Assembly (NCBI RefSeq): GCF_902167145.1
Contig: NC_050100.1
Span: forward strand, 187,357,439-187,421,438
DNA: 64,000 nt
Direction of reading: 5' to 3'
Source: Zea mays
Lineage: Eukaryota > Streptophyta > Magnoliopsida > Poales > Poaceae
Part shown: piece by piece, positions 23,456 to 44,806 of the stretch
How the letters are laid out: each line of letters opens with the position of its first letter
Position numbering within the stretch: the first letter of the stretch is position 1
Made by a program: the position numbers and the translations under genes
The notes under the pieces: model-generated
Seen by the model: the letters and a program-made list of their open reading frames with translations, nothing else
Databases searched by the model: none
What the model was told of the DNA's origin: nothing

Positions 23456-24034
23456 TAATAAATTTCAGGCTGATTATGCGATTCAGCACCTTTGAATTTT
23501 GGGCCGTGTCGGGCCAGTCCATGGGTCTAGCCTCAGTCTACAACCTGGTACGTAATTGTTTAAACGTGTCCGGTATATTTCGGCAGTCCAAAATTATAAA
23601 AAGACTGAAATTATAAAAAAACTGAAATTCAATTTTTGGACCAAAATTTAATTTTTGGATCTAAATTCAAAACAAATAAAAGATAAGATAAATAAATTTG
23701 ACCAAAAACAAACTTAATATTTGTATTAAGTTATAAAGCTATGCAATGACTACCTCGTTTACAAATCATTTTGTTAGAAGGAAAAAGAGTATAATCAGCT
23801 CTATATAAAGTTCATAAGTTTAGTTTATTATCTAATGTTTATAACAAAAGTAAAATTACATCACACACTCTAATTCAAAGCCACAAAAAACATCAAACTA
23901 ACATCATCTCTAGCTTTGTATTCTTTATCAAGTACATGAAAGTATGGAATGAAGTGTGGTTTTAATGAATATATGAGCCTTTTCGCGCCTTTATATGGGT
24001 CATTTCGTGTCTGCCACAAACGGACCGTGCTCGT

Positions 24035-25311
24035 TGAAAGTCGCCTAGAGGGGGGTGAATAGGGCGAAACTGGAATTTACAAAGTTAATCACAACTACAA
24101 GCCGGGTTAGCGTTAGAAATATAATCGAGTCCGCGAGAGAGGGTGCAAAACAAATCGCAAGCGAATAAAGAGTGTGACACGTGGATTTGTTTTATCGAGG
24201 TTTGGTTCTCGCAAACCTACTCCCCGTTGAGGAGGCCACAAAGGCCGGGTCTTTTTCAACCCCTTCCCTCTCTCAAATGGTCCCTCAGACCGAGTGAGCT
24301 TTCTCTTCTCAAATCAACCGGGAACAAAACTTCCCCGCAAGGACCACCACACAATTGGTGTCTCTTGCCTCGGTTACAAGTGAGTATTGATCTCAAGAAA
24401 GAATGAGAAAGAAGAAAGCAATCCAAGCGCAAGAGCTCAAAAGAACACAACAAATCACTCTCACTTAACACTAAAGCTTTTGTGGAATTGGGAGAGGATT
24501 TGATCACTTGGGTGTGTTTTGTATTGAATGCCTAGCTCTTGTAAGTAGTTGGAAGGTGGAAAACTTGGATGTCTTGAATGTGGGGTGGTTGGGGGTATTT
24601 ATAACCCCAACCACCAAACTAGCCGTTTGGTGGAGGCTGTCTGTCGCATGGCGCACCGGACAGTCCGGTGCGCCAGCCACGTCACCAGGCCGCTGGGTTC
24701 CGACCGTTGGAGCTCTGACTGCTGGGCCCGCCTGGATGTCCGGTGGCACACCGGACATGTACTGTAGAGTGTCCGGTGCGCCACTTCGCGCGTGCCTGAC
24801 TTCTGCGCGCTCTGGCGCGCATTAATTGCTTCTGCAGGTGACCGTTGGCGCGAAGTAGCCGTTGTTCCGCTGGCTCACCGGACAGTCCGGTGTGCACCGG
24901 ACATGTCCGGTGAATTATAGCGGAGTAGATTCCCGAAGTTGGCGAGTTCAGAGTCGCTCTCCTCTGGAGCACCGGACACTGTCCGGTATACACCGGACAG
25001 TCCGATGAATTATAGCGGAGCGCTTCTGAGTTTTCCCGAAGGTGAAGAGTTTGGCTTGGAGTCCCCTGGTGCATCGGACACTGTCCGGTGGCACACCGGA
25101 TAGTCCGGTGCGCCAGACCAGGGCAGCCTTCGGTTATCCCTTGCTCTCTTTTGTTGAACCCATTTCTTGGTCTTTTTATTGGCTAAGTGTGAACCTTTGG
25201 CACCTGTATAACTTATAGACTAGAGCAAACTAGTTAGTCCAATTTATTTGTGTTGGGCAATTCAACCACCAAAATCAATTAGGAACTAGGTGTAAGCCTA
25301 ATTCCCTTTCA
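24035..25311 (-). repeat. 3' LTR of the Sirevirus (1277 bp)
   Basis: On the plus strand it reads TGAAAGTCGCCTAGAGG...AATTCCCTTTCA. The TATA box on the minus strand is TATAAATA (plus 24597-24604). The U3 side (24650-25110) holds a cluster of palindromes built on CACCGGACAGTCCGGTG. Many differences from the 5' LTR are C/T or G/A transitions, as expected from methylated DNA. Confidence 0.9.
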
Positions 25312-29344: not shown

Positions 29345-30474
29345 CCTACAAAACAAGTTTAGTTCTTGACTTTAGGTACCCAAATGGTTTTGGGTCCTTT
29401 GGCATTAGACACAAGAACTTTGGGTACCCAAACACAAGTCTTTGACCCCTTGTGCTTGCCCCCAACATATTTGGCAACTACTTTGCCGGATTTGTTAGTC
29501 AACACATAAGATGCATCAAAAGTCTTAAATGAAATGCTATGTTCATTTGATGCACTAGGAGTTTTCTTCTTAGGCAACTTAGCACGGGTTGGTTGCCTAG
29601 AACTAGATGTCTCACCCTTATACATAAAAGCATGGTTAGGGCCAGAGTGAGACTTCCTAGAGTGAATTCTCCTAATTTTGTCCTCGGGATAACCGGCAGG
29701 GTACAAAATGTAACCCTCGTTACCTTGAGACATGGGAGCCTTGCCCTTAACAAAGTTAGACAATTTCTTAGGAGGGACATTAAGTTTGACATTGCCTCCC
29801 TGTTGGAAGCCAATGCCATCCTTAATGCCAGGGCGTATCCCATTATAAAGCATACTACGAGCAAATTTAAAATTTTCATTTTCAAGTTCATGCTCGGCAA
29901 TTTTAGCATTTAATTTTGCTATATGATCATTTTGTTGTTTAATTAGAGCCATGTGATCATGTATAGCATTAATATCAACATCTCTACATCTAGTGCAAAT
30001 AGAAGTATGTTCAACGGTAGATGTAGAGGGTTTGCAAGATTTTAATTCTACAACCTTAGCATGCAATATATCATTTTTACTTCTAAGGTCGGAAATTGTA
30101 ACATTGCAAACATCAAGTTCTTTAGCCTTAGCAAGTAATTTCTCATTTTCATTCCTAAGGCTAGCAAGAGAAATGTTTAGTTCTTTTATTTTAGCAAGCA
30201 ACTCAATATTATCATTTGGAATTGAAACATTGCAAGCATTTGAATCAACCTTAGCTAACAAATTAGCATTCTCATTTCTAAGGTTGTCAATAGTCTCATG
30301 GCATGTGCTTAGCTCACTAGATAGTTTTTGTAACGCCCCGAATTTTGCAGTTGAATTTTTTTCTTTTCTTTACTCGCCAAAATTCGGGCGTTACCTTTTC
30401 CTTTTCTTTTTCCCCTCGCTAAACCTTGACCTTTTCCAAAGTTCTAGCGGGATTCGGTTTGGAATTCCCGTACG

Positions 30475-30484
30475 TATAAAAACC
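30475..30484 (+). promoter_or_regulatory. Chromovirus LTR TATA box
   Basis: TATAAAAACC lies 146 bp into the LTR with GC-moderate flanks; the copy in the 3' LTR is identical. The predicted start leaves a short U3 and a very long R/U5. Confidence 0.6.
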
Positions 30485-30827
30485 CTAAATGCTTTATGTT
30501 GCTTGATGCACCATGCCGAACCTTGCATTTCTTTTGATTGCTTTGAAAGCGCAATTGCATTCATGTAGAAAGATCGGATTTCGAAAATATGGAGAAGATC
30601 TTTTCTTTCTTTTTTTCTCCCTCTCTTTTTCTCTCCTCTTTTTCTCTCTCTCCCGCGCCGTGGGCCGACCCCGGCCGGCCCAGCCGCCCCCTGGCGCCCC
30701 CCCCTTGGGCCCAATAGGCCCAACCGCCCCCCCCACCTCCCCTTTTTCCCCCAATTCTTTCTCCCTCCCTCTCATTTTCTCTCATTTTCTTCTTCCCCAC
30801 CCTAGCCGCCGCCCCTACCCCCGCCCC

Positions 30828-30998
30828 ATGGCCGGCTCGGCCGCCCCCTGCGCCGCCCCCTGCCCCGCCCGGTTCGGCCGCCCCATGGCCGGCTCGGCCG
30901 CCCCCTGCGCCGCCCCCTGCCCCGCCCGGTTCGGCCGCCCCATGGCCGGCTCGGCCGCCCCCTGCGCCGCCCCCTGCCCCGCCGGTTCGGCCGCCCCT
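30828..30998 (+). repeat. 57-bp tandem repeat in the chromovirus LTR
   Basis: ATGGCCGGCTCGGCCGCC recurs at 30828, 30885 and 30942, a period of 57 bp (19 codons), with a degenerate continuation. The period keeps one frame open (182 codons, 30513-31061), but the Ala/Pro composition looks like a by-product of GC-rich repeats. The same array is in the 3' LTR near 39713-39885. Confidence 0.85.
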
Positions 30999-31530
30999 GC
31001 GCTCCGCCGGTTCGGCCGCCCCGCCCTCGCCAGCTCGGCCGCCCCTGCGCGCCCCGCCTAGGGCCGGTTCAACCGCCCTAGGGCCGGTTCAACCGCCCCC
31101 CCCCCTTCTGTTTTTTTTTATTTTTTTATTTTATTTTATTTACTTTCTGTGATCATAATTACTGCATTTTAAGTAGGCTAATCGCTGTTCATGCTATGAG
31201 AAAATAGGAAGTTTAATTTAAATTCCGTTATGCTATTGATTCACGTAGTTAATTGTTTACCCTGTGCAATGTTGATCAACTAAAAGTGATTAGGTTTCCA
31301 TTAGTATATATAAATATGTATAACAGAATTATTTTGTTAAAAACCAATTGTGTCATTAGTGCATAAGATTTAACCTCCTGCGAGACCTTTCCCGTTTCTT
31401 TCTAGCCATAACAAATGCGTTATCGAATGTCATACTTGATGCATATTCGCTTTATTTGTTATCTTGTATGGTGTACTGTTCTTTTGTATTAAATGTGTGG
31501 ATGTATGTATGTATGTTTGCGCTCGCATAG

Positions 31531-32659
31531 AGAACGATCCGGTCGAAGAGCCCGAGGAATTCGCAGGAGAAGCCCCTGAGCAGCAGTCGTTTGGTGGAGG
31601 CAAGTGTCCTTTGACCTATCTATGTCCTATTCATTCTTTAATTCACCTCCCGCATTACACATTTATACCTAAGGATTGACTAGCTTTTGTTATCCATGTC
31701 CTTGTTTACCTATTTGGGTCGGATTATTACTACTTAGTCTGATGCTATTGCTCAACTCTAATCAATGAACATGATGTGATTATCTATGATACGCTGTTTT
31801 CCCGTTCTACTTTATGATTATACTTGTGGTTTTCAAGGGGACTCGAGCGGTTTCTCGAGTGCCTCTCCGTAAGGACCTGTTCTATGGATGACCGCCCGGG
31901 AAAACAGTGCAACCATGAGGGTGGAATGGGGTGCCCTTAGCTGAATAATTAGAGGATCCGGGGTGTAGTTCACTTAGCCGTCGTGCCGTCAATGGGGCTC
32001 GGTGTATGCGGCTCGCTCTGCCAAGTTTGGGTTCGCCCCTTGGGGAGGAGTGCGGTGCATTTAGGAAACCTAACGGGTGGCTACAGCCCCGGGGAATCTT
32101 TGTAAAGGCTTCGTAGTGGATCCTTGGCCATTCACCTCGGGAGTGAATAAGGGTCTTGCAAGCCCGGGCCAGAGAGGGAATCACGGCTTGTGGGTAAAGT
32201 GCACAACCTTTGCAGAGTGTTATGAAACTGATATATCAGCCGTGCTCGCGGTTATGAGCGGCCAAGGGAGCTCCAGAGATTAGTGATACTTGATCAGAGA
32301 TATTTTGGTACAGGTGGTTATGAGATTGATGTTTCCGGTTATGATTATGGTGCTGGTAAGTGGTATCCTTTCCGTTTGGAAAGGATACATTGGGTTAATA
32401 ACTTGGGTTAATGCTAAAACTTGGCTTTCTACTAGTAAATAATAATCTGACCAACTAAAAGCAACTGCTTGACTTATCCCCACATAAAGCTAGTCCACTA
32501 CAGCCAAACAGGATACTTGCTGAGTATGTTGATGTGTACTCACCCTTGCTCTACACACCAACCCCCCCCCCAGGTTGTCAGCATTGCAACCACTGCTCAG
32601 GCGAAGATGAAGCTGTGGAAGGAGACTTCCAGGAGTTCCAAGATTACGACGAGTTCTAG
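31531..32659 (+). other. Exon-like pair inside the chromovirus LTR
   Basis: A segment after GCATAG (31531-31599) ends at a GC-type donor, GAG|GCAAGT. A second starts after a C-rich tract, CCCCAG|GTTGTCAG (32574), and ends with TAG at 32657-32659. Joined, the frame stays open: an acidic peptide, then a CQHCNHC Cys/His cluster and an acidic Asp/Glu tail. A strong conventional donor CTG|GTAAGT lies at 32355/32356. First exon and function unknown. Confidence 0.4.
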
Positions 32660-32918
32660 GTGTGGGTTAGCGGCAACCCCCAGTCGGCTGCCTGTGAAGG
32701 CCGTGTTATCTACGTTTCTTTTCCGCACTTTGATTTATTGTAAGAACTATATGGACGTCTCAGACGTATGATGTAATCGACTATTTCCCTTATTAATACC
32801 ATTTTGAGCACTGTGTGATGATGTCCATATTATGTAACTGCTGTGTACGTGAATAACTGATCCTGGCACGTACATGGTTCGCATTCGGTTTGCCTTCTAA
32901 AACCGGGTGTGACATAAG

Positions 32919-32930
32919 TGGTATCAGAGC
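32919..32930 (+). promoter_or_regulatory. Primer-binding site of the chromovirus
   Basis: TGGTATCAGAGC, complementary to the 3' end of plant initiator tRNA-Met, lies 4 nt after the LTR. Confidence 0.92.
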
Positions 32931-33174
32931 CGTGCTGACTGTAGGACCGCTAACCTAGAGTAGAATGGCCGTTCTAAGGATTATAGACCTCTGTCTCTTC
33001 CTTGACTTTGATATCCCTTCAAAAGTTGGTCCTACTGACCAAACCTATGTTCTACTACATATTATACCTTGCTGAAAATTATGTTTTATTCTGATCCTTC
33101 ATTTACTTATGATTCATTACTTGCTGGTCATATTAATTCTGTTCTCACCCTTTTGCTTGCGATGTCTTTTGTAG
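32931..33174 (+). other. Chromovirus leader before ORF1
   Basis: Non-coding leader. It ends TTTTGCTTGCGATGTCTTTTGTAG, a pyrimidine-rich splice-acceptor-like tract placed exactly before the ORF1 ATG (given here as description of 24 nt at 33151-33174; core TGTCTTTTGTAG). Confidence 0.5.
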
Positions 33175-34188
33175 ATGGCTCGACTTAGACACACTGCACG
33201 AAAGTCAGTCATCCCCTTCTTACCTTCCCGCCTTGCTGAGCGTCCGCTTCGCCGTCCTGTGGCCGGACAGTCCAGCCACTTGGAGAGACTACACCACCGC
33301 CTGCGTGAGGAGCAGGAGCGTCGACGACAGGAGCAGCAGAGCTCTTCCCTCTCGCTCCACCAGGAGATAGAGTCTGTGAGGAGCTGCTCCCCTGTGCTTC
33401 CTCTGGAGCCGCCCCCTGCACCACCACTGGGCGCCCCAGCCTCTGGAGTAGCTGCTGGAGGAGACCCAGACGACGGAGATGGCGACGACAGCTCGAGCCA
33501 CGACACCGACTTCTCTGCTAACCCTGAGCCGGAAGGATGGGTTGCTCGACCCATCACTCGCGACGCTGCTCGCGGGTGTCACTTCCATGATGCGCTCGAC
33601 ACCCTGCTACGTCGGGCATTTGACCGGCATACTTGGTCCGTCGAGTATCGCTGTGTGGTCTACCAGCATAGTCGCGGGGTCTACCCGGACCGCTGGGAGG
33701 CTACTTGCTTGGTGCGCTGCCCGGAGGACAGTCTCCAGGGTGCAGAGGCCTGTTCAGAGCACTATTCTATCTCTGAGCGGGACTCAGCTGAGGCAGCCAT
33801 GCAAGATGCTGCACGGCGTGCGCTTTCGCACTACTGCTCGGTTTTCGGTGGGGCAGCTGACGGTCTTGACCTGAAGTATTACCCCCGCCGTTCATCTGGC
33901 AGCACAGGAGGCGTGATTGTCTCACCTGTCGGTGAGGGCAATCCTAGGTTGAGCAGCACAGTCAACCTAGCCGCCGTGCTAAACACGGAGCTGGACCATG
34001 CATTAGACGAGCTGAGTAGGGCTCGTGCTGAGATCGCCCTGCTGCGGGCTGAGCGCGCGGAACGTCGTTTTCTGGACGGTGGTTCCCCCGCTCCCGTTGG
34101 GACTCAGCACCCGTACCGCTCACCTCAGCGTGGACACCAGTCTTATGGCAATCCCGCCTGCAAGACCAAGATCAATCTAGAACCATAG
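33175..34188 (+). CDS. Extra ORF upstream of gag-pol: histone-H3-tail-like N-terminus, dsRBD-like region, coiled coil
   Basis: Open frame of 337 aa starting at an ATG directly after a TTTTGTAG acceptor-like site. The N-terminus MARLRHTARKS matches histone H3 (MARTKQTARKS) without gaps at A1, R2, T6, A7, R8, K9 and S10, counted without Met. Residues about 35-67 are an Arg/Gln/Glu-rich helix and 98-113 are acidic. Residues about 137-225 read helix-strands-helix (DALDTLLRRAF, WSVEYRCVV, RWEATCLV, DSAEAAMQDAARRAL), resembling a double-stranded-RNA-binding domain, whose last helix typically carries an AE..AA..AL pattern. Residues 264-300 form a coiled coil. I know no named family. Its freedom from stops in a very young element and its fixed place between PBS and gag suggest a working accessory protein; a role in chromatin or RNA handling is inference. 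Confidence 0.75.
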   Translation: MARLRHTARKSVIPFLPSRLAERPLRRPVAGQSSHLERLHHRLREEQERRRQEQQSSSLSLHQEIESVRSCSPVLPLEPPPAPPLGAPASGVAAGGDPDDGDGDDSSSHDTDFSANPEPEGWVARPITRDAARGCHFHDALDTLLRRAFDRHTWSVEYRCVVYQHSRGVYPDRWEATCLVRCPEDSLQGAEACSEHYSISERDSAEAAMQDAARRALSHYCSVFGGAADGLDLKYYPRRSSGSTGGVIVSPVGEGNPRLSSTVNLAAVLNTELDHALDELSRARAEIALLRAERAERRFLDGGSPAPVGTQHPYRSPQRGHQSYGNPACKTKINLEP

Positions 34189-34595
34189 ATCGTTAGAGTT
34201 GGATCTTGTAATTAATACGAAATAAATATATACATAGAAGCTTCAATCTTAGCGTTAGTCTCGGTCTTAGTTAGTTTTAGTTAGACAGGGTAGTTTGCTA
34301 TATCCTGTGCATTTATGTTTGTCATGATGAACTATGTTTGATTTGGATCTTTGTAATGATTGTCACCAGAGTGTGGGTATCCCCTGCATTTTGGTTTACA
34401 TACTATGTCAATAAAGTTAGTTATATAGTTGGGAAACCCATTATTCTCCTTTCCTCTTTATCTGAGAAGCTGTGTGGTCTGTGTTGGAGATCAGTGAAGA
34501 TGCTCATCTGTTCAGTGCTGTTGGAGAATTCTATACTCTTTTCTTATGCTGCAAGCTTTGCCAGATCAGTTCTGATGTGTGGTTGCGTTCTGCAG
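34189..34595 (+). other. Spacer between ORF1 and gag-pol
   Basis: AT-rich spacer ending CTGATGTGTGGTTGCGTTC then TGCAG directly before ATG, again acceptor-like with a possible branch site (TTCTGAT). The gag-pol frame is open back to 34338, but the residues before the ATG at 34596 are hydrophobic, lack gag similarity and are probably untranslated. Confidence 0.5.
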
Positions 34596-37500
34596 ATGTC
34601 AGAGAACAGGCGTAGAGGAGGAAGGCGTGCTCAGCAGGAGCGAGCCGCTCCGCAGGATGAGGTGCCCCAGCAGCAACACCTGCCGCCCCCGCCCCCGATG
34701 TCGATTGAGCAGATGTTTCTGATGCAGACTCAGGCAGTTCAAGCCATCGGTCAGACTCTGGCCGCCATTCAGCAGCAGCAGCAGCAACAGCAGCAAGCAC
34801 CACCCCAGCCTCAGATGCCTCAGATGCCTAGAGACAAGCGTGCTGAATTCATGAGAGGTCATCCACCAACGTTCGCTCACTCTTCCGACCCCATGGATGC
34901 TGAAGATTGGCTGCGCACTGTGGAGCGGGAGTTGCATACCGCTCAGTGCGATGACCGGGAGAAAGTTCTGTATGGTCCCCGTCTGTTGAGAGGAGCAGCC
35001 CAGTCATGGTGGGAGTCTTACCTCGCCACCCATGCCAACCCCGACACCATCACCTGGGAAGAATTCCGAGGTAGCTTTCGTCAGTACCATGTGCCTGCAG
35101 GTCTGATGACAGTGAAGAAGGAGGAGTTCCTGGCCCTTAAGCAAGGGTCATCGTCTGTCAGTGAGTACCGGGACAAGTTTCTGCAATTGTCTCGCTATGC
35201 TCCTGAAGATGTCAACACCGACGCCAAGCGACAGTACCGTTTCCTGAGAGGCTTGGTTGACCCTCTGCAGTATCAGCTGATGAACCACACCTTCCCGACA
35301 TTCCAGCACCTGATTGACAGAGCAATCATGACAGAAAGGAAGCGCAAGGAGATGGAAGATCGTAAGCGCAAGATCAGTGGACCCCAGCCTGGAAGCAGCA
35401 GCCGTCCCCGTTTCTCAGGCAATCAACCTCAGCAGTTCAGGCAGAACCAGCGTCCACCTCAGCAGCATCAGCAGCGTCAGCAGTATCAGCAGTTCCAAAG
35501 GCAGTACCCTCAGAATCAGTACCAGAACCGTCAGAGCAATCAGTCAGGAGGTCAGTTTCAAAAGCAGAATCAGCAAGCACCTCGCCTTCCTGCCCCAGCA
35601 AATCAGCAGAACAGTCAGGCAGCACCAGCTCAGGTTGGAAACAGGGCATGTTTCCACTGTGGGGAGCAAGGCCACTGGGTGATGCAATGTCCGAAGAAGG
35701 CAGCCCAGCAGCAGTCAGGCCCCAATGCCCCAGCAAAGCAGAGCGTGCCTCAGCCTGGAGCAGGCAATCGCCCTCAGCCGCGCTATAATCATGGAAGATT
35801 GAATCACTTGGAGGCTGAAGCAGTTCAGGAGACCCCCGACATGATAGTGGGTATGTTCCCAGTCGACTCCCATATTGCAGAAGTGTTATTTGATACTGGA
35901 GCAACACATTCTTTCATTACTGCATCATGGGTAGAAGCACATAATCTTCCAACTACTACCATGTTAACCCCCATTCAAATTGACTCAGCCGGTGGTAGAG
36001 TTCGAGCTGATAGCATTTGTTTGAATATAAGTGTGAAAATAAGGGGGATAGCATTTCCCGCCAACCTTATAGTAATGGGTACTCAGGGAATAGATGTCAT
36101 CCTAGGGATGAATTGGCTAGATAAGTATCAGGCCGTTATCAGTTGTGATAAAAGGACAATCAAGTTGATGTCCCCACTAGGAGAGGAAGTGGTGACCGAG
36201 TTAGTCCCGCCTGAGCCAAAGAAAGGAAGTTGTTATCAGATGGCTGTCGATAGCAGTGAAGCAGACCCAATTGAGAGTATCAAGGTTGTGTCTGAATTCC
36301 CAGATGTGTTTCCAAAGGATTTACCGGGTATGCCACCAGAGCGAAAAGTTGAATTTGCTATAGAGCTTCTTCCTGGAACCGCCCCTATCTTCAAGAGAGC
36401 TTACAGAATATCTGGACCAGAGTTGGATGAGCTTAAGAAGCAGATTGATGAGCTGTCAGAGAAAGGTTACATTCGGCCAAGCACCTCGCCTTGGGCCGCC
36501 CCTGTCTTGTTCGTGGAAAAGAAAGATGGCACCAAAAGGATGTGTATCGATTATCGAGCTTTGAATGAGGTCACGATCAAGAACAAGTATCCCTTGCCCA
36601 GAATAGAAGATCTGTTCGACCAGTTGAGAGGAGCCAGTGTGTTCTCCAAGATTGATCTGAGGTCAGGTTATCATCAGCTCAGGATCCGACCTTCGGACAT
36701 TCCGAAGACGGCATTCATTACCAAGTATGGTTTGTATGAGTTCACAGTGATGTCTTTTGGTTTGACCAATGCGCCAGCGTTCTTCATGAACTTGATGAAC
36801 AGTGTATTCATGGATTATCTTGATAAGTTTGTGGTGGTATTCATTGATGACATTCTGGTTTATTCTCAAAGTGAAGAAGAGCATGCAGATCATTTGAGGA
36901 TGGTATTGCAGAGATTGCGAGAGCACCAGTTGTATGCAAAGTTGAGCAAGTGTGAGTTCTGGATCAGTGAAGTCCTGTTCTTGGGTCACATAATCAACAA
37001 AGAAGGATTGGCTGTGGATCCGAAGAAAGTGGCAGACATTCTGAACTGGAAAGCGCCAACAGATGCTCGAGGAATCAAGAGCTTCATTGGAATGGCCGGA
37101 TATTATCGGCGATTCATTGAAGGGTTTTCGAAGATTGCGAAGCCAATGACAGCGTTGCTAGGCAACAAAGTTGAGTTCAAGTGGACCCAGAAATGCCAAG
37201 AGGCCTTTGAAGCGCTGAAAGAGAAGTTGACTACAGCGCCTGTCCTAGTCTTGCCTGATGTGCACAAGCCCTTCTCGGTGTATTGCGATGCTTGTTACAC
37301 AGGTTTGGGATGTGTGTTGATGCAAGAGGGAAGAGTTGTGGCTTACTCGTCCCGACAGCTGAAGGTTCATGAGAAGAACTACCCAATCCATGATCTAGAG
37401 TTGGCAGCAGTGGTTCACGCACTGAAGACATGGAGGCACTACCTGTATGGACAGAAATGCGATGTTTACACAGACCATAAGAGTCTGAAGTACATATTCA

Positions 37501-39176
37501 CTCAGTCAGAATTGAACATGAGGCAGCGAAGATGGTTAGAGTTGATCAAAGACTATGAGTTGGAAATTCATTACCATCCAGGCAAAGCAAACGTAGTGGC
37601 AGATGCTCTGAGCAGAAAGAGTCAAGTCAATCTGATGGTCGCTCGCCCGATGCCTTATGAGTTGGCCAAGGAGTTCGACAGGTTGAGTCTCGGATTTCTG
37701 AACAATTCGCGAGGAGTCACAGTTGAATTAGAACCTACCTTGGAGCGAGAAATCAAAGAAGCGCAGAAGAATGATGAAAAGATCAGTGAGATTCGGCGAT
37801 TGATTCTAGATAGCAGAGGCAAAGATTTTCGAGAAGATGCAGAAGGCGTGATATGGTTCAGAGACCGCTTGTGTGTTCCCAATGTCCAGTCTATTCGGGA
37901 GTTGATTCTTAAGGAAGCTCATGAGACAGCTTATTCGATTCACCCTGGCAGTGAGAAGATGTATCAGGATCTGAAGAAGAAATTCTGGTGGTACGGAATG
38001 AAAAGAGAAATCGCAGAGCATGTGGCTATGTGCGATAGTTGTCGAAGAATTAAGGCAGAACACCAGAGACCAGCTGGATTGTTGCAACCGTTGCAGATCC
38101 CTCAGTGGAAATGGGATGAAATTGGTATGGATTTCATAGTCGGATTGCCTCGCACTCGAGCCGGCTACGATTCCATTTGGGTAGTAGTGGATCGCTTGAC
38201 CAAGTCAGCCCACTTCATACCTGTCAAGACCAACTACAACAGTGCAGTATTAGCAGAATTGTACATGTCTCGGATCGTTTGTCTTCATGGTGTGCCAAAG
38301 AAGATAGTGTCAGACAGAGGAACGCAGTTCACCTCTCATTTCTGGCAGCAGTTGCATGAAGCCTTGGGCACGCATCTGAATTTCAGTTCAGCTTATCACC
38401 CGCAGACAGATGGTCAGACTGAAAGAACCAATCAAATTCTTGAAGATATGTTGAGAGCCTGTGCGTTGCAAGATCAGTCCGGATGGGACAAGCGATTGCC
38501 TTATGCAGAGTTTTCCTATAACAACAGTTATCAGGCCAGTTTGAAGATGTCACCGTTTCAAGCGCTGTATGGAAGGAATTGCAGAACTCCGTTGCAATGG
38601 GATCAGCCTGGAGAAAAGCAAGTGTTTGGGCCAGACATTTTGCTCGAAGCCGAAGAGAACATCAAGATGGTCCGAGAGAATCTGAAGATAGCGCAATCGA
38701 GGCAGCGAAGCTATGCAGACACAAGAAGAAGAGAGCTGAGTTTCGAAGTCGGAGACTTTGTCTATCTGAAAGTGTCACCGATCAGAGGAGTCAGAAGATT
38801 CGGAGTGAAAGGCAAGCTAGCACCCCGCTACATTGGTCCGTATCAGATTCTTGCAAGACGAGGAGAAGTGGCTTATCAGCTCAGTTTGCCAGAGAATTTG
38901 TCTGCTGTGCATGATGTCTTTCATGTGTCTCAGTTGAAGAAGTGTTTGCGTGTGCCGGAAGAGCAGTTGCCAGTGGAAGGTCTTGAGGTCCAGGAGGACT
39001 TGACCTATATTGAGAAGCCAGCTCAGATCCTTGAGGTTGCAGATAGAGTCACCCGAAGGAAGACCGTCAGAATGTGCAAAGTCAGATGGAGTCACCACTC
39101 TGAGGAAGAAGCAACCTGGGAGCGTGAAGATGATCTGATGGCCAAGTACCCGGAACTCTTTGCTAGCCAGCCCTGA
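34596..39176 (+). CDS. gag-pol: Chromovirus Gag-Pol polyprotein with C-terminal chromodomain
   Basis: Single open frame of 1526 aa from the ATG at 34596 ([10 protein letters not shown]), without stops. In order: a retrotransposon gag domain (about residues 85-250), a Gln-rich linker, a zinc knuckle [14 protein letters not shown] (about 350), aspartic protease with DTGATHSF (about 431), and RT with [11 protein letters not shown] and catalytic FIDDILVYS (about 748). RNase H follows ([26 protein letters not shown]), then integrase with an HHCC zinc finger (about 1105-1152) and a DDE core ([30 protein letters not shown]), a GPY/F-like module (APRYIGPY), and a chromodomain (about 1469-1523, [12 protein letters not shown]). 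This is chromovirus order. Chromodomains of this kind direct integration toward chromatin with particular histone marks. All catalytic residues I looked for are present. Confidence 0.95.
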
Positions 39177-39198
39177 ATCTCGAGGGCGAGATTCTTTT

Positions 39199-39210
39199 AA
39201 GGGGGATAGG
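39199..39210 (+). promoter_or_regulatory. Chromovirus polypurine tract
   Basis: AAGGGGGATAGG lies 2 nt before the 3' LTR and after the gag-pol stop; it is the plus-strand primer site. Confidence 0.85.
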
Positions 39211-39212
39211 TT

Positions 39213-41799
39213 TGTAACGCCCCGAATTTTGCAGTTGAATTTTTTTTCTTTTCTTTACTCGCCAAAATTCGGGCGTTACCTTTTCCTTTTCTTTTTCCCC
39301 TCGCTAAACCTTGACCTTTTCCAAAGTTCTAGCGGGATTCGGTTTGGAATTCCCGTACGTATAAAAACCCTAAATGCTTTATGTTGCTTGATGCACCATG
39401 CCGAACCTTGCATTTCTTTTGATTGCTTTGAAAGCGCAATTGCATTCATGTAGAAAGATCGGATTTCGAAAATATGGAGAAGATCTTTTCTTTCTTTTTT
39501 TCTCCCTCTCTTTTTCTCTCCTCTTTTTCTCTCTCTCCCGCGCCGTGGGCCGACCCCGGCCGGCCCAGCCGCCCCCTGGCGCCCCCCCCTTGGGCCCAAT
39601 AGGCCCAACCGCCCCCCCCACCTCCCCTTTTTCCCCCAATTCTTTCTCCCTCCCTCTCATTTTCTCTCATTTTCTTCTTCCCCACCCTAGCCGCCGCCCC
39701 TACCCCCGCCCCATGGCCGGCTCGGCCGCCCCCTGCGCCGCCCCCTGCCCCGCCCGGTTCGGCCGCCCCATGGCCGGCTCGGCCGCCCCCTGCGCCGCCC
39801 CCTGCCCCGCCCGGTTCGGCCGCCCCATGGCCGGCTCGGCCGCCCCCTGCGCCGCCCCCTGCCCCGCCGGTTCGGCCGCCCCTGCGCTCCGCCGGTTCGG
39901 CCGCCCCGCCCTCGCCAGCTCGGCCGCCCCTGCGCGCCCCGCCTAGGGCCGGTTCAACCGCCCTAGGGCCGGTTCAACCGCCCCCCCCCCCTTCTGTTTT
40001 TTTTTATTTTTTTATTTTATTTTATTTACTTTCTGTGATCATAATTACTGCATTTTAAGTAGGCTAATCGCTGTTCATGCTATGAGAAAATAGGAAGTTT
40101 AATTTAAATTCCGTTATGCTATTGATTCACGTAGTTAATTGTTTACCCTGTGCAATGTTGATCAACTAAAAGTGATTAGGTTTCCATTAGTATATATAAA
40201 TATGTATAACAGAATTATTTTGTTAAAAACCAATTGTGTCATTAGTGCATAAGATTTAACCTCCTGCGAGACCTTTCCCGTTTCTTTCTAGCCATAACAA
40301 ATGCGTTATCGAATGTCATACTTGATGCATATTCGCTTTATTTGTTATCTTGTATGGTGTACTGTTCTTTTGTATTAAATGTGTGGATGTATGTATGTAT
40401 GTTTGCGCTCGCATAGAGAACGATCCGGTCGAAGAGCCCGAGGAATTCGCAGGAGAAGCCCCTGAGCAGCAGTCGTTTGGTGGAGGCAAGTGTCCTTTGA
40501 CCTATCTATGTCCTATTCATTCTTTAATTCACCTCCCGCATTACACATTTATACCTAAGGATTGACTAGCTTTTGTTATCCATGTCCTTGTTTACCTATT
40601 TGGGTCGGATTATTACTACTTAGTCTGATGCTATTGCTCAACTCTAATCAATGAACATGATGTGATTATCTATGATACGCTGTTTTCCCGTTCTTCTTTA
40701 TGATTATACTTGTGGTTTTCAAGGGGACTCGAGCGGTTTCTCGAGTGCCTCTCCGTAAGGACCTGTTCTATGGATGACCGCCCGGGAAAACAGTGCAACC
40801 ATGAGGGTGGAATGGGGTGCCCTTAGCTGAATAATTAGAGGATCCGGGGTGTAGTTCACTTAGCCGTCGTGCCGTCAATGGGGCTCGGTGTATGCGGCTC
40901 GCTCTGCCAAGTTTGGGTTCGCCCCTTGGGGAGGAGTGCGGTGCATTTAGGAAACCTAACGGGTGGCTACAGCCCCGGGGAATCTTTGTAAAGGCTTCGT
41001 AGTGGATCCCTGGCCATTCACCTCGGGAGTGAATAAGGGTCTTGCAAGCCCGGGCCAGAGAGGGAATCACGGCTTGTGGGTAAAGTGCACAACCTCTGCA
41101 GAGTGTTATGAAACTGATATATCAGCCGTGCTCGCGGTTATGAGCGGCCAAGGGAGCTCCAGAGATTAGTGATACTTGATCAGAGATATTTTGGTACAGG
41201 TGGTTATGAGATTGATGTTTCCGGTTATGATTATGGTGCTGGTAAGTGGTATCCTTTCCGTTTGGAAAGGATACATTGGGTTAATAACTTGGGTTAATGC
41301 TAAAACTTGGCTTTCTACTAGTAAATAATAATCTGACCAACTAAAAGCAACTGCTTGACTTATCCCCACATAAAGCTAGTCCACTACAGCCAAACAGGAT
41401 ACTTGCTGAGTATGTTGATGTGTACTCACCCTTGCTCTACACACCAAACCCCCCCCAGGTTGTCAGCATTGCAACCACTGCTCAGGCGAAGATGAAGCTG
41501 TGGAAGGAGACTTCCAGGAGTTCCAAGATTACGACGAGTTCTAGGTGTGGGTTAGCGGCAACCCCCAGTCGGCTGCCTGTGAAGGCCGTGTTATCTACGT
41601 TTCTTTTCCGCACTTTGATTTATTGTAAGAACTATATGGACGTCTCAGACGTATGATGTAATCGACTATTTCCCTTATTAATACCATTTTGAGCACTGTG
41701 TGATGATGTCCATATTATGTAACTGCTGTGTACGTGAATAACTGATCCTGGCACGTACATGGTTCGCATTCGGTTTGCCTTCTAAAACCGGGTGTGACA
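39213..41799 (+). repeat. 3' LTR of the chromovirus (2587 bp)
   Basis: Nearly identical to the 5' LTR. Differences seen by eye: one extra T near 39240, one extra C near 39990, A to T near 40694, T to C near 41010, T to C near 41096, and a shorter C-run near 41450. Confidence 0.93.
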
Positions 41800-43492
41800 G
41801 TTTTTCACATTTTTCTACTTCTAGAGCGTAAGCATTCTTAACCTTAACATGCTTTTTGTTTTCTTTAATAAGGAAGTCCTCTTGGGAGTCCAAGAGATCA
41901 TCCTTTTCATGGATAGCACTAATTAGTTCATTTAGTTTTTCCTTTTGTTGCATGTTGAGGTTAGCAAAAAGAGTACGCAAATTATCTTCCTCATCACTAG
42001 CATTATCATCGCTAGAGGACTCATATCCAGTGGAGGATTTGGATTCAACCTTCTTCTTTTTGCCGTCCTTTGTCATGAGGCACTTGTGGCCGACGTTGGG
42101 GAAGAGAAGGCCCTTGTTGATGGCGATGTTGGTGGCGTCCTCGTCGGAAGAGGAGTCGGAGGAGCTCTCGTCCGAGTCCCACTCGCGGCATACATGGGCG
42201 TCGCCACCCTTCTTCTTGTAGTATTTCTTCTTTTCCTTTCTTTTCCCCTTCTTGTCGTCGCCCCTGTCACTGTCACTAGAAATAGGGCATTTTGCCATAA
42301 AGTGACCAGGCTTACCACACTTGTAGCAAACCTTCTTGGAGCGGGGCTTGTAATCTTTCCCCCTCCTTTGCTTGAGGATTTGGCGGAAGCTCTTGATGAT
42401 GAGCGCCATTTCCTCGTTGTCGAGCTTTGAGGCGTCAATTGGTTGTCTACTCGGTGTAGACTCCTCCTTCTCCTCCGTCGCCTTAAATGCCACCGGTTGT
42501 GCTTCGGACATGAAGGGATCATCTAGCTCGTTGATTTTCTTTGAGCCCTTGATCATATACTCAAAGCTCACAAAATTCCCGATTACTTCCTCGGGAGTCA
42601 TTAGTGTATATCTAGGATTGCCATGAATTAATTGTACTTGAGTAGGGTTAAGGAAAATAAGTGATCTTAGAATAACCTTAACCATCTCGTGGTCATCCCA
42701 CTTTTTGCTCCCGAGGTTGCGCACTTGGTTCACCAAGGTTTTGAGCCGATTGTACATGTCTTGTGGCTCTTCCCCTTTGCGAAGCCGGAAGCCACCGAGC
42801 TCCCCCTCGATCGTTTCCCGCTTGATGATCTTGGTTAGCTCGTCTCCCTCGTGCGCGGTCTTGAGCACGTCCCAAACTTTCTTGGCGCTCTTTAATCCTT
42901 GCACCTTGTTGTACTCCTCTCTACTTAGAGAAGCGAGGAGTATGGTTGTGGCTTGGGAGTTGAAGTGCTCGATTTGGGCCACTTCGTCCTCATCATAATC
43001 CTCATCCCCTACGGATGGTACCTGTGCTCCAAACTCAACAACATTCCATATACTTTTGTGGAGTGAGGTTAGGTGAAATTTCATCAAATCACTCCACCTA
43101 GCATAATCTTCACCGTCAAAGGTTGGCGGTTTGCCTAATGGAACGGAAAGTAATGGAGTATGTCTAGAAGTGTGAGGATAGTGTAAGGGGATCTTACTAA
43201 ACTTCTTGCGCTCATGGCGCTTAGAAGTTATGGAGGGCGCGTCGGAGCCGGATGTGGAAGGTGATGAAGTATCGGTCTCGTAGTAGACCACCTTCCTCAT
43301 CTTCTTTTTCTTGTCGCCACTCCTATGCGACTTGTGGGAAGAAGCTTTCTTCACCTTTCCCTTCCCTTTGTTGCGGGACTCTTCCGATGAAGCTTTCCCG
43401 TGGCTTGTAGTGGGCTTGTCGCCGGTCTCCATCTCCTTCTTGGCGAGTTCTCCCGACATCACTTCGAGCGGTTAGGCTCTAATGAAGCACCG

Positions 43493-43505: not shown

Positions 43506-43507
43506 AT

Positions 43508-44806
43508 TGAAAGTCGCCTAGAGGGGGGGTGAATAGGGCGAAACTGAAATTTACAAAGTTAATCACAACTACAAGCCGGGTTAGCGTTAGAAATATAATC
43601 GAGTCCGCGAGAGAGGGTGCAAAACAAATCGCAAGCGAATAAAGAGTGTGACACGCAGATTTGTTTTACCGAGGTTCGGTTCTCGCAAACCTACTCCCCG
43701 TTGAGGAGGCCACAAAGGTCGGGTCTTTTCAACCCCTTCCCTCTCTCAAACGGTCCCTCGGACCGAGTGAGCTTTCTCTTCTCAAATCAACCGGGAACAA
43801 AACTTCCCCGCAAGGACCACCACACAATTGGTGTCTCTTGCCTCGGTTACAAGTGAGTATTGATCTCAAGAAAGAATGAGAAAGAAGAAAGCAATCCAAG
43901 CGCAAGAGCTCAAAAGAACACAACAAATCACTCTCACTTAACACTAAAGCTTTTGTGGAATTGGGAGAGGATTTGATCACTTGGGTGTGTTTTGTATTGA
44001 ATGCCTAGCTCTTGTAAGTAGTTGGAAGGTGGAAAACTTGGATGTCTTGAATGTGGGGTGGTTGGGGGTATTTATAACCCCAACCACCAAACTAGCCGTT
44101 TGGTGGAGGCTGTCTGTCGCATGGCGCATCGGACAGTCCGGTGCGCCACCGGACGCTGTCCGGTGCGCCAGCCACGTCACCAGGCCGTTGGGTTCCGACC
44201 GTTGGAGCTCTGACTGCTGGGCCCGCCTGGATGTCCGGTGGCACACCGGACATGTACTGTAGAGTGTCCGGTGCGCCACTTCGCGCGTGCCTGACTTCTG
44301 CGCGCTCTGGCGCGCATTAATTGCTTCTGCAGGTGACCGTTGGCGCGAAGTAGCCGTTGCTCCGCTGGCTCACCGGACAGTCCGGTGTGCACCGGACATG
44401 TCCGGTGAATTATAGCGGAGCAGATTCCCGAAGCTGGCGAGTTCAGACTCGCTCTCCTCTGGAGCACCGGACACTGTCCGGTGTACACCGGACAGTCCGG
44501 TGAATTATAGTGGAGCGCTTCTGAGTTTTCCCGAAGGTGAAGAGTTTGGCTTGGAGTCCCCTGGTGCACCGGACACTGTCCGGTGGCGCACCGGACAGTC
44601 CGGTGCGCCAGACCAGGGCAGCCTTCGGTTATCCCTTGCTCTCTTTTGTTGAACCCATTTCTTGGTCTTTTTATTTGCTAAGTGTGAACCTTTGGCACCT
44701 GTATAACTTATAGACTAGAGCAAACTAGTTAGTCCAATTTATTTGTGTTGGGCAATTCAACCACCAAAATCAATTAGGAACTAGGTGTAAGCCTAATTCC
44801 CTTTCA
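43508..44806 (-). repeat. 5' LTR of the Sirevirus (1299 bp)
   Basis: Same ends as the 3' LTR. It is longer mainly because of one extra CACCGGACGCTGTCCGGTGCG-type palindrome unit near 44147-44168 (about 22 bp). TATA on the minus strand at plus 44069-44076. TSD CTCGT follows at 44807. Confidence 0.9.

Follow-up and report, generated by a model that had tools for sequence, protein, structure and literature searches.

The 64,000-nucleotide stretch of maize (Zea mays) DNA analysed here, referred to as the window, contains an intact long terminal repeat (LTR) retrotransposon, whose LTR pair, target duplication, primer site and open reading frames (ORFs) were all located, at 30329-41799. Upstream of gag-pol this element carries an extra reading frame, ORF0, in whose first residues an earlier note had seen a mimic of the histone H3 tail. 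The explanation considered best, which is given an even chance, is that ORF0 is an accessory protein, perhaps able to bind RNA, encoded by a grass chromovirus that is young and abundant and of the same kind as Retrosat2, RIRE3 and RIRE8, and that the resemblance of ORF0 to H3 is coincidental. As judged from the sequences, the H3-like decapeptide is probably a coincidental part of a longer conserved segment: the evidence fits such a segment better than a selected mimic, and the conservation itself is real. ORF0s occur in abundant retrotransposons of grasses, and no role has been established for them. What is gained for them is an anatomy that can be tested: an N-terminal block under constraint, a linker that varies, a second region again under constraint, and start sites resembling splice sites.

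Resemblance to histone H3 and selection along ORF0

The ATG at 33175 begins a frame of 337 amino acids, ending at 34188, which starts MARLRHTARKS. Compared without gaps, ARLRHTARKS and the H3 sequence ARTKQTARKS are identical at 7 of 10 positions (A1, R2, T6, A7, R8, K9 and S10), with ARKS at its H3 position, as the earlier note had stated. Under ORF0 or generic composition, seven or more matches would arise at a given N-terminus with a probability between about 3e-7 and 1e-6; the model takes Ala to follow Met in 20% of proteins and is uncorrected for the number of proteins and of famous peptides open to comparison. As in the H3 tail and in histone mimics of the ARKS and ARKT types, TARKS is found at the correct distance from the N-terminus. 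Unlike in H3, K4 and Q5 are replaced, H3 residues 11-13 are unmatched (H3 continues T-G-G, where ORF0 has V-I-P), and the H3-like stretch is embedded within a longer conserved block. A captured histone is ruled out, since similarity to H3 ends at residue 10. That similarity stops there is true of the likeness to H3 and not of ORF0 conservation, residues 12-31 being the more constrained. No report of H3 mimicry by a retrotransposon was present among the literature matches listed, in a search mostly outside subscription journals.

Selection was evaluated by the ratio of nonsynonymous to synonymous differences per site (pN/pS), comparing the window copy with four intact loci of the P0112 type (one of the subfamilies described below; pS about 0.54) and counting Met as residue 1. 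The ratio is 0.27 for the whole ORF0, and 0.20, 0.10, 0.14, 0.71 and 0.19 for residues 1-11, 12-31, 32-50, 51-120 and 121-225. A set of 28 loci, from which L010 and L016 were omitted because their matches begin at residue 2, gives 0.28 for the whole and 0.24, 0.11, 0.14, 0.67 and 0.19 for the same intervals. ORF0 has thus evolved under purifying selection. Three zones can be told apart in it: a single conserved segment made up of the N-terminal 50 residues, a variable linker, and a second conserved region. The most conserved portion of the N-terminal block lies mostly beyond the H3 likeness. Since pN/pS is higher in residues 1-11 than in residues 12-31 and 32-50, the H3-like residues do not stand out as a target of selection, and the special constraint that a mimic would lead one to expect there is not found. 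Ranking of all 327 segments of 11 residues along ORF0 places the one starting at residue 1 at position 192 by pN (28 copies) and at position 69 by entropy (107 proteins); by entropy, the segment starting at residue 10, KSVIPFLPSRL, ranks second. The 107 proteins were taken out of 235 by means of short N-terminal motifs, a choice that favours conserved starts.

Conservation of the start among copies and relatives

The genome searched comprises 2.18 Gb in 655 contigs. A DNA pattern for M-A-R-x-x-x-T-A-R-K is matched 5,542 times (2,758 + 2,784), and a backward control 0 times. All 100 matches listed are ORF0-type 30-mers; the remaining ones must include true H3 genes. Three ORF0 subfamilies, indicated as window type, P0062 type and P0112 type, are present in this genome, each with at least 118-119 scored copies. 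None of the 119 window-type copies scored, out of 11,799 first-look candidates, has an internal stop. All three subfamilies keep the ORF0 start, and the free variation at A7 to S10, named beforehand as sufficient to discard the mimic, is not observed. The subfamilies differ at decapeptide positions 3 and 5. All 8 window-type and all 12 P0062-type loci have L and H there; of 30 P0112-type loci, 22 have I and C, 7 have L and C, and 1 has R and C.

In order to lessen selection by the ORF0 start itself, loci were also sampled by their primer-binding site, a pattern with 1,351 occurrences in the genome. The sample consists of 40 listed places with a TAAG spacer on a single contig, which are not all of those present; the exact pattern favours loci of the window type (33 loci with H5, 5 with C5). 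ORF0 starts were located by at least 12 matches in 41 to the window N-terminus, so that a fully lost start would fall among the misses. A recognisable start is found in 38 of the 40 loci, where the conserved residues are kept as follows: M 38, A1 37, R2 36, T6 38, A7 36, R8 37, K9 38 and S10 37. The two loci without it are L090, which seems to be of another family, and L109, in which nothing recognisable was seen. The majority fraction is 0.974 for H3-matching positions and 0.959 for the next 16 residues: the two groups are about as conserved, and this sample does not separate them. An ORF0-like start was seen in none of ten loci retrieved with a GAAG spacer before the primer site (L053-L061 and L071); among the other ten loci of the same set it is present in L062, L066, L068 and L069. 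Two 10-kb stretches from arbitrary places contain distant pol pieces only and no ORF0.

A protein search with ORF0 found 847 homologues, and a second one, scored on residues 70-340 of a divergent member, found 808. Of each, 120 are listed, nearly all from source 'jgi' and without an informative name. A third search, with ORF0 and a Gly-Ser pad intended to admit longer ORF0s only, found one protein, matched over 43% of the region and also containing reverse transcriptase (RT) domains. The relatives reached in this way are near ones. Neither prokaryote genome contigs nor viral contigs, when scanned, yielded a confirmed relative of ORF0; the viral ones yielded none of gag-pol either. In the 104-105 proteins, of the 107, that cover the start, residues differ at R2 in 18, R8 in 14, A7 in 12 and S10 in 8. 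Arg codons in old copies have most often turned into codons for H, C, W and Q, changes that we interpret as the expected decay of methylated CpG. Invariance of K9 in old copies is, by our reasoning, little informative, because AAG codons change silently under the commonest decay.

Relation to known ORF0s and predicted structure

An ORF0 upstream of gag-pol has been described, in the available text of PMC3485330, for Retrosat2, RIRE3, RIRE8, FRetro3, ZMsat2 (maize), Sorsat2 (sorghum) and Brasat2. These ORF0s, among them the homologues in maize, sorghum and Brachypodium, are reported there with identities from 7.6 to 90.2% and a Ka higher than that of gag-pol, and are not found outside grasses. 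Structural models suggested hydrolase-type enzymes to the authors, for whom the effect on transposition was unclear; an H3-like start is not mentioned in that portion of the paper. Following its definition, the window ORF0 is of this known kind: an extra frame between the 5' LTR and gag-pol, in a Ty3/gypsy element of a grass with long LTRs. The assignment is by description, and the LTR ends differ, being TGTAACGCCC in the window element and TGTCACACCC in Retrosat2 and RIRE8.

ORF0 itself matches no Pfam or NCBIfam family. For its second region two models agree in predicting a helix, three strands and a helix, the second model adding a short strand before them. This order is in agreement with the folds of double-stranded RNA (dsRNA)-binding domains, to whose topology it bears a likeness, and of ribosome hibernation factors. 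Hibernation factors are among the best VIA-align matches to the ORF0 model; no dsRNA-binding domain is among the VIA-align matches listed, an absence that excludes nothing. A significant Foldseek match was not obtained with the model, which is of low confidence.

The N-terminal segment probably serves nuclear entry, or the binding of nucleic acids or of a partner. The whole protein could act on the element RNA as an RNA-binding, self-associating factor, for export, packaging or shielding from silencing. Because the predicted helix-three strands-helix region is followed by a long helix, this is regarded as the most likely mechanism, and is proposed only tentatively, on the basis of the models.

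Start sites and possible splicing

An in-frame TAG stop directly precedes the ORF0 ATG: without splicing, ORF0 cannot begin further upstream. All 50 loci compared have TAG at this place, and 49 have ATG as start codon. Pyrimidines make up on average 67% of positions -18 to -4, and in 41 of the 50 loci a CTNAY motif is present at -30 to -14. For gag, residue 1 was placed without requiring AG in 40 of the 50 loci, ten others being out of register and uncounted; in all 40 the ATG is likewise preceded by such a triplet, CAG in 36 and TAG in 4. Both YAG triplets look like 3' splice sites abutting start codons. This arrangement suggests that alternative splicing may select which frame, ORF0 or gag, is translated first, the two being perhaps expressed from spliced RNAs; from the sequences, such expression falls somewhat short of an even chance. 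Use of the site before ORF0 might leave the protein without a free N-terminus.

A conserved splice donor was found neither by matrix scoring nor in aligned relatives. The best donor by the scoring matrix, CTG/GTAAGT at 32356, scores 10.7 of 12.4 and would join in frame as ...MRLMFPVMIMVL-MARLRH, the upstream frame being open and containing Met codons; it is not seen in the aligned relatives, where the alignment is poor.

The AG-ATG arrangement may be wider than the ORF0 family. In L061 and L090, which seem to belong to another family with the same primer site and have no ORF0-like start, a frame beginning MVNTRKGGGID directly follows CAG or TAG. A further segment resembling an exon lies inside the 5' LTR, at 32570-32659 (the 3' LTR is near-identical), after a C-rich tract ending in CAG. 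Its 90 nucleotides read PGCQHCNHCSGEDEAVEGDFQEFQDYDEF-stop, with length and frame kept in 30 of 30 loci where it was found, out of 50, by a pattern fixing both ends. In its own frame pN/pS is 0.06 against seven P0062-type loci and 0.39 against 15 P0112-type loci; in the other two frames it is 6.25 and 0.22, and 1.77 and 1.14.

The chromodomain and alternative explanations

According to the earlier note, the ORF0 tail, once methylated, could be bound by the chromodomain of the same element. A domain is indeed present at the integrase C-terminus: its Chromo Pfam match scores 20.2 bits, below the cut-off of 25.1, and it aligns to solved chromodomains with a best E of 3.1e-5. The cage that binds methylated H3 is another matter. 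In the alignment to the solved chromodomain 2m2l only Trp is kept of the three aromatic residues characteristic of group I, H3K9me-binding domains; Leu and His are opposite Phe and Tyr, at what we read as the first and third cage positions from Y24/W45/Y48 in the available part of PMC3350952. The same retention of the middle cage residue alone is seen in group II chromodomains of seed-plant chromoviruses (PMC3350952, PMC6317226), from which no distinctive difference was noticed. As far as the accessible text of these papers goes, the cage motif is absent from seed-plant chromoviruses (PMC6317226), and group II domains are without cage residues (PMC6317226, PMC3605345), or usually so (PMC2832683); they do not interact with methyl-H3K9, yet target a fusion to heterochromatin through an unknown partner (PMC2832683). 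These residues and published statements make a self-reading loop improbable. Binding of the methylated tail by the element's own chromodomain is regarded as extremely unlikely, in spite of the chromodomain-like region, of the conserved cage Trp and of the heterochromatic localization of group II domains. One step of the H3-mimic idea is thereby removed, and host readers are left as possible binders.

In the host-read version, Met would be removed, K9 methylated by host SUVH-type enzymes, and the tail bound by LHP1 or CMT3, as a decoy or tether. Thousands of copies of an H3K9-tail mimic would have been seeded, and methylated ORF0, occupying LHP1, CMT3 or SUVH, would locally weaken the silencing loop of H3K9 and DNA methylation, with the element's chromodomain not acting as reader. 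If this were true, a transposon would be turning a host heterochromatin mark against its host. It is in keeping with the 7 of 10 identities at the H3 position, with their retention in 36-38 of the 38 primer-site loci (K9 in all of them) and with the 5,542 pattern matches, all those listed being of ORF0 type. It has to contend with the absence of selection focused on residues 1-11, the replacement of K4 and Q5 and of T-G-G, the differences at R2, R8, A7 and S10 among homologous proteins, and the scarce value of K9 invariance. The mimic interpretation finds partial support in the keeping of the start in three subfamilies; focused constraint is not found, and self-reading is unlikely. Both the host-read tail and the weakening of silencing by its many copies are considered, on these sequence comparisons, highly improbable. 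A localisation signal in residues 1-31, nuclear or like an organelle presequence, whose Arg/Ser/Ala-rich make-up would bring about the H3 likeness, is unlikely: the first 20 residues after Met contain five Arg/Lys and no acidic residue, and conservation extends throughout residues 1-31 and further, but a presequence helix would not usually contain prolines, which are present at 14 and 17. Also quite unlikely is a spliced product whose N-terminus lies upstream of the ATG at 33175, with an in-frame exon joined at TAG/ATG and the H3-like stretch left internal. The invariable TAG puts T at -3, which is poor for initiation, and the donor at 32356 joins in frame; that donor is not recovered in the relatives, poorly aligned there, and the start codon is kept as ATG in 49 of 50 loci and as Met in all 38 sampled ones.

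Some observations weigh against the preferred explanation, an accessory protein with a coincidental likeness to H3. Positions 3 and 5, which vary between subfamilies, both belong to the three that do not match H3, an outcome to be expected by our arithmetic with a probability of 3/45 = 0.07, and one that favours the host-read mimic. No dsRNA-binding family is among the Pfam matches listed for ORF0, which speaks against the RNA-binding part. Finally, plant LTR elements are generally without introns, Ogre and EVADE being notable exceptions in the available text of PMC12786077, so that splicing of ORF0 and gag would be unusual.

The element and its surroundings

Features of the element are reported below, with coordinates, strand and, where needed, the basis of the assignment.

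30324-30328, no strand: target site duplication GTTTT, left copy
30329-32914, plus: 5' LTR, TGTAACGCCCC...GGGTGTGACA
32919-32930, plus: primer binding site TGGTATCAGAGC, which we take to be of the initiator-Met tRNA type (sequence; aligned with relatives)
33150-33174, plus: tract like a 3' splice site, ending in TAG directly before the ORF0 ATG (TAG in 50 of 50 loci)
33175-34188, plus: ORF0, accessory protein, 337 amino acids (ORF list, homologues)
33175-33324, plus: conserved N-terminal segment, residues 1-50, MARLRHTARKSVIPFLPSRLAERPLRR...
33178-33207, plus: ten codons ARLRHTARKS, like histone H3 residues 1-10
33325-33534, plus: variable linker, residues 51-120 (pN/pS 0.71)
33583-33846, plus: predicted helix-three strands-helix region, residues 137-224 (low-confidence models)
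33943-34077, plus: predicted long helix, residues 257-301 (model), coiled-coil-like in our reading
34570-34595, plus: tract like a 3' splice site, ending in CAG directly before the gag ATG (CAG 36, TAG 4, of 40 placed loci)
34596-39176, plus: gag-pol polyprotein, 1526 amino acids (Pfam)
39042-39161, plus: C-terminal chromodomain, group II-like, with one of three cage aromatics (Pfam, alignment to solved chromodomains)
39213-41799, plus: 3' LTR
41800-41804, no strand: target site duplication GTTTT, right copy

The two LTRs are 99.65% identical over 2,597 aligned columns, with five mismatches and four gap openings, and the 5-bp duplication GTTTT flanks the element on both sides. The youth attributed to the element is thus confirmed: at a substitution rate of 1.3e-8 per site per year, the five mismatches indicate insertion less than 0.1 million years ago. 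Pfam identifies gag, protease, RT, RNase H, integrase and a C-terminal Chromo domain, the order of a Ty3/gypsy chromovirus. The group II-like chromodomain and the long LTR would agree with a placement in the Tekay clade.

The chromovirus, together with gag- and pol-like ORFs on the minus strand (of copia type by eye only), is enclosed by two direct repeats of 1.3 kb, 96.6% identical, at 24034-25311 and 43507-44806, as if a copia-like element lying between them had been entered by the chromovirus.
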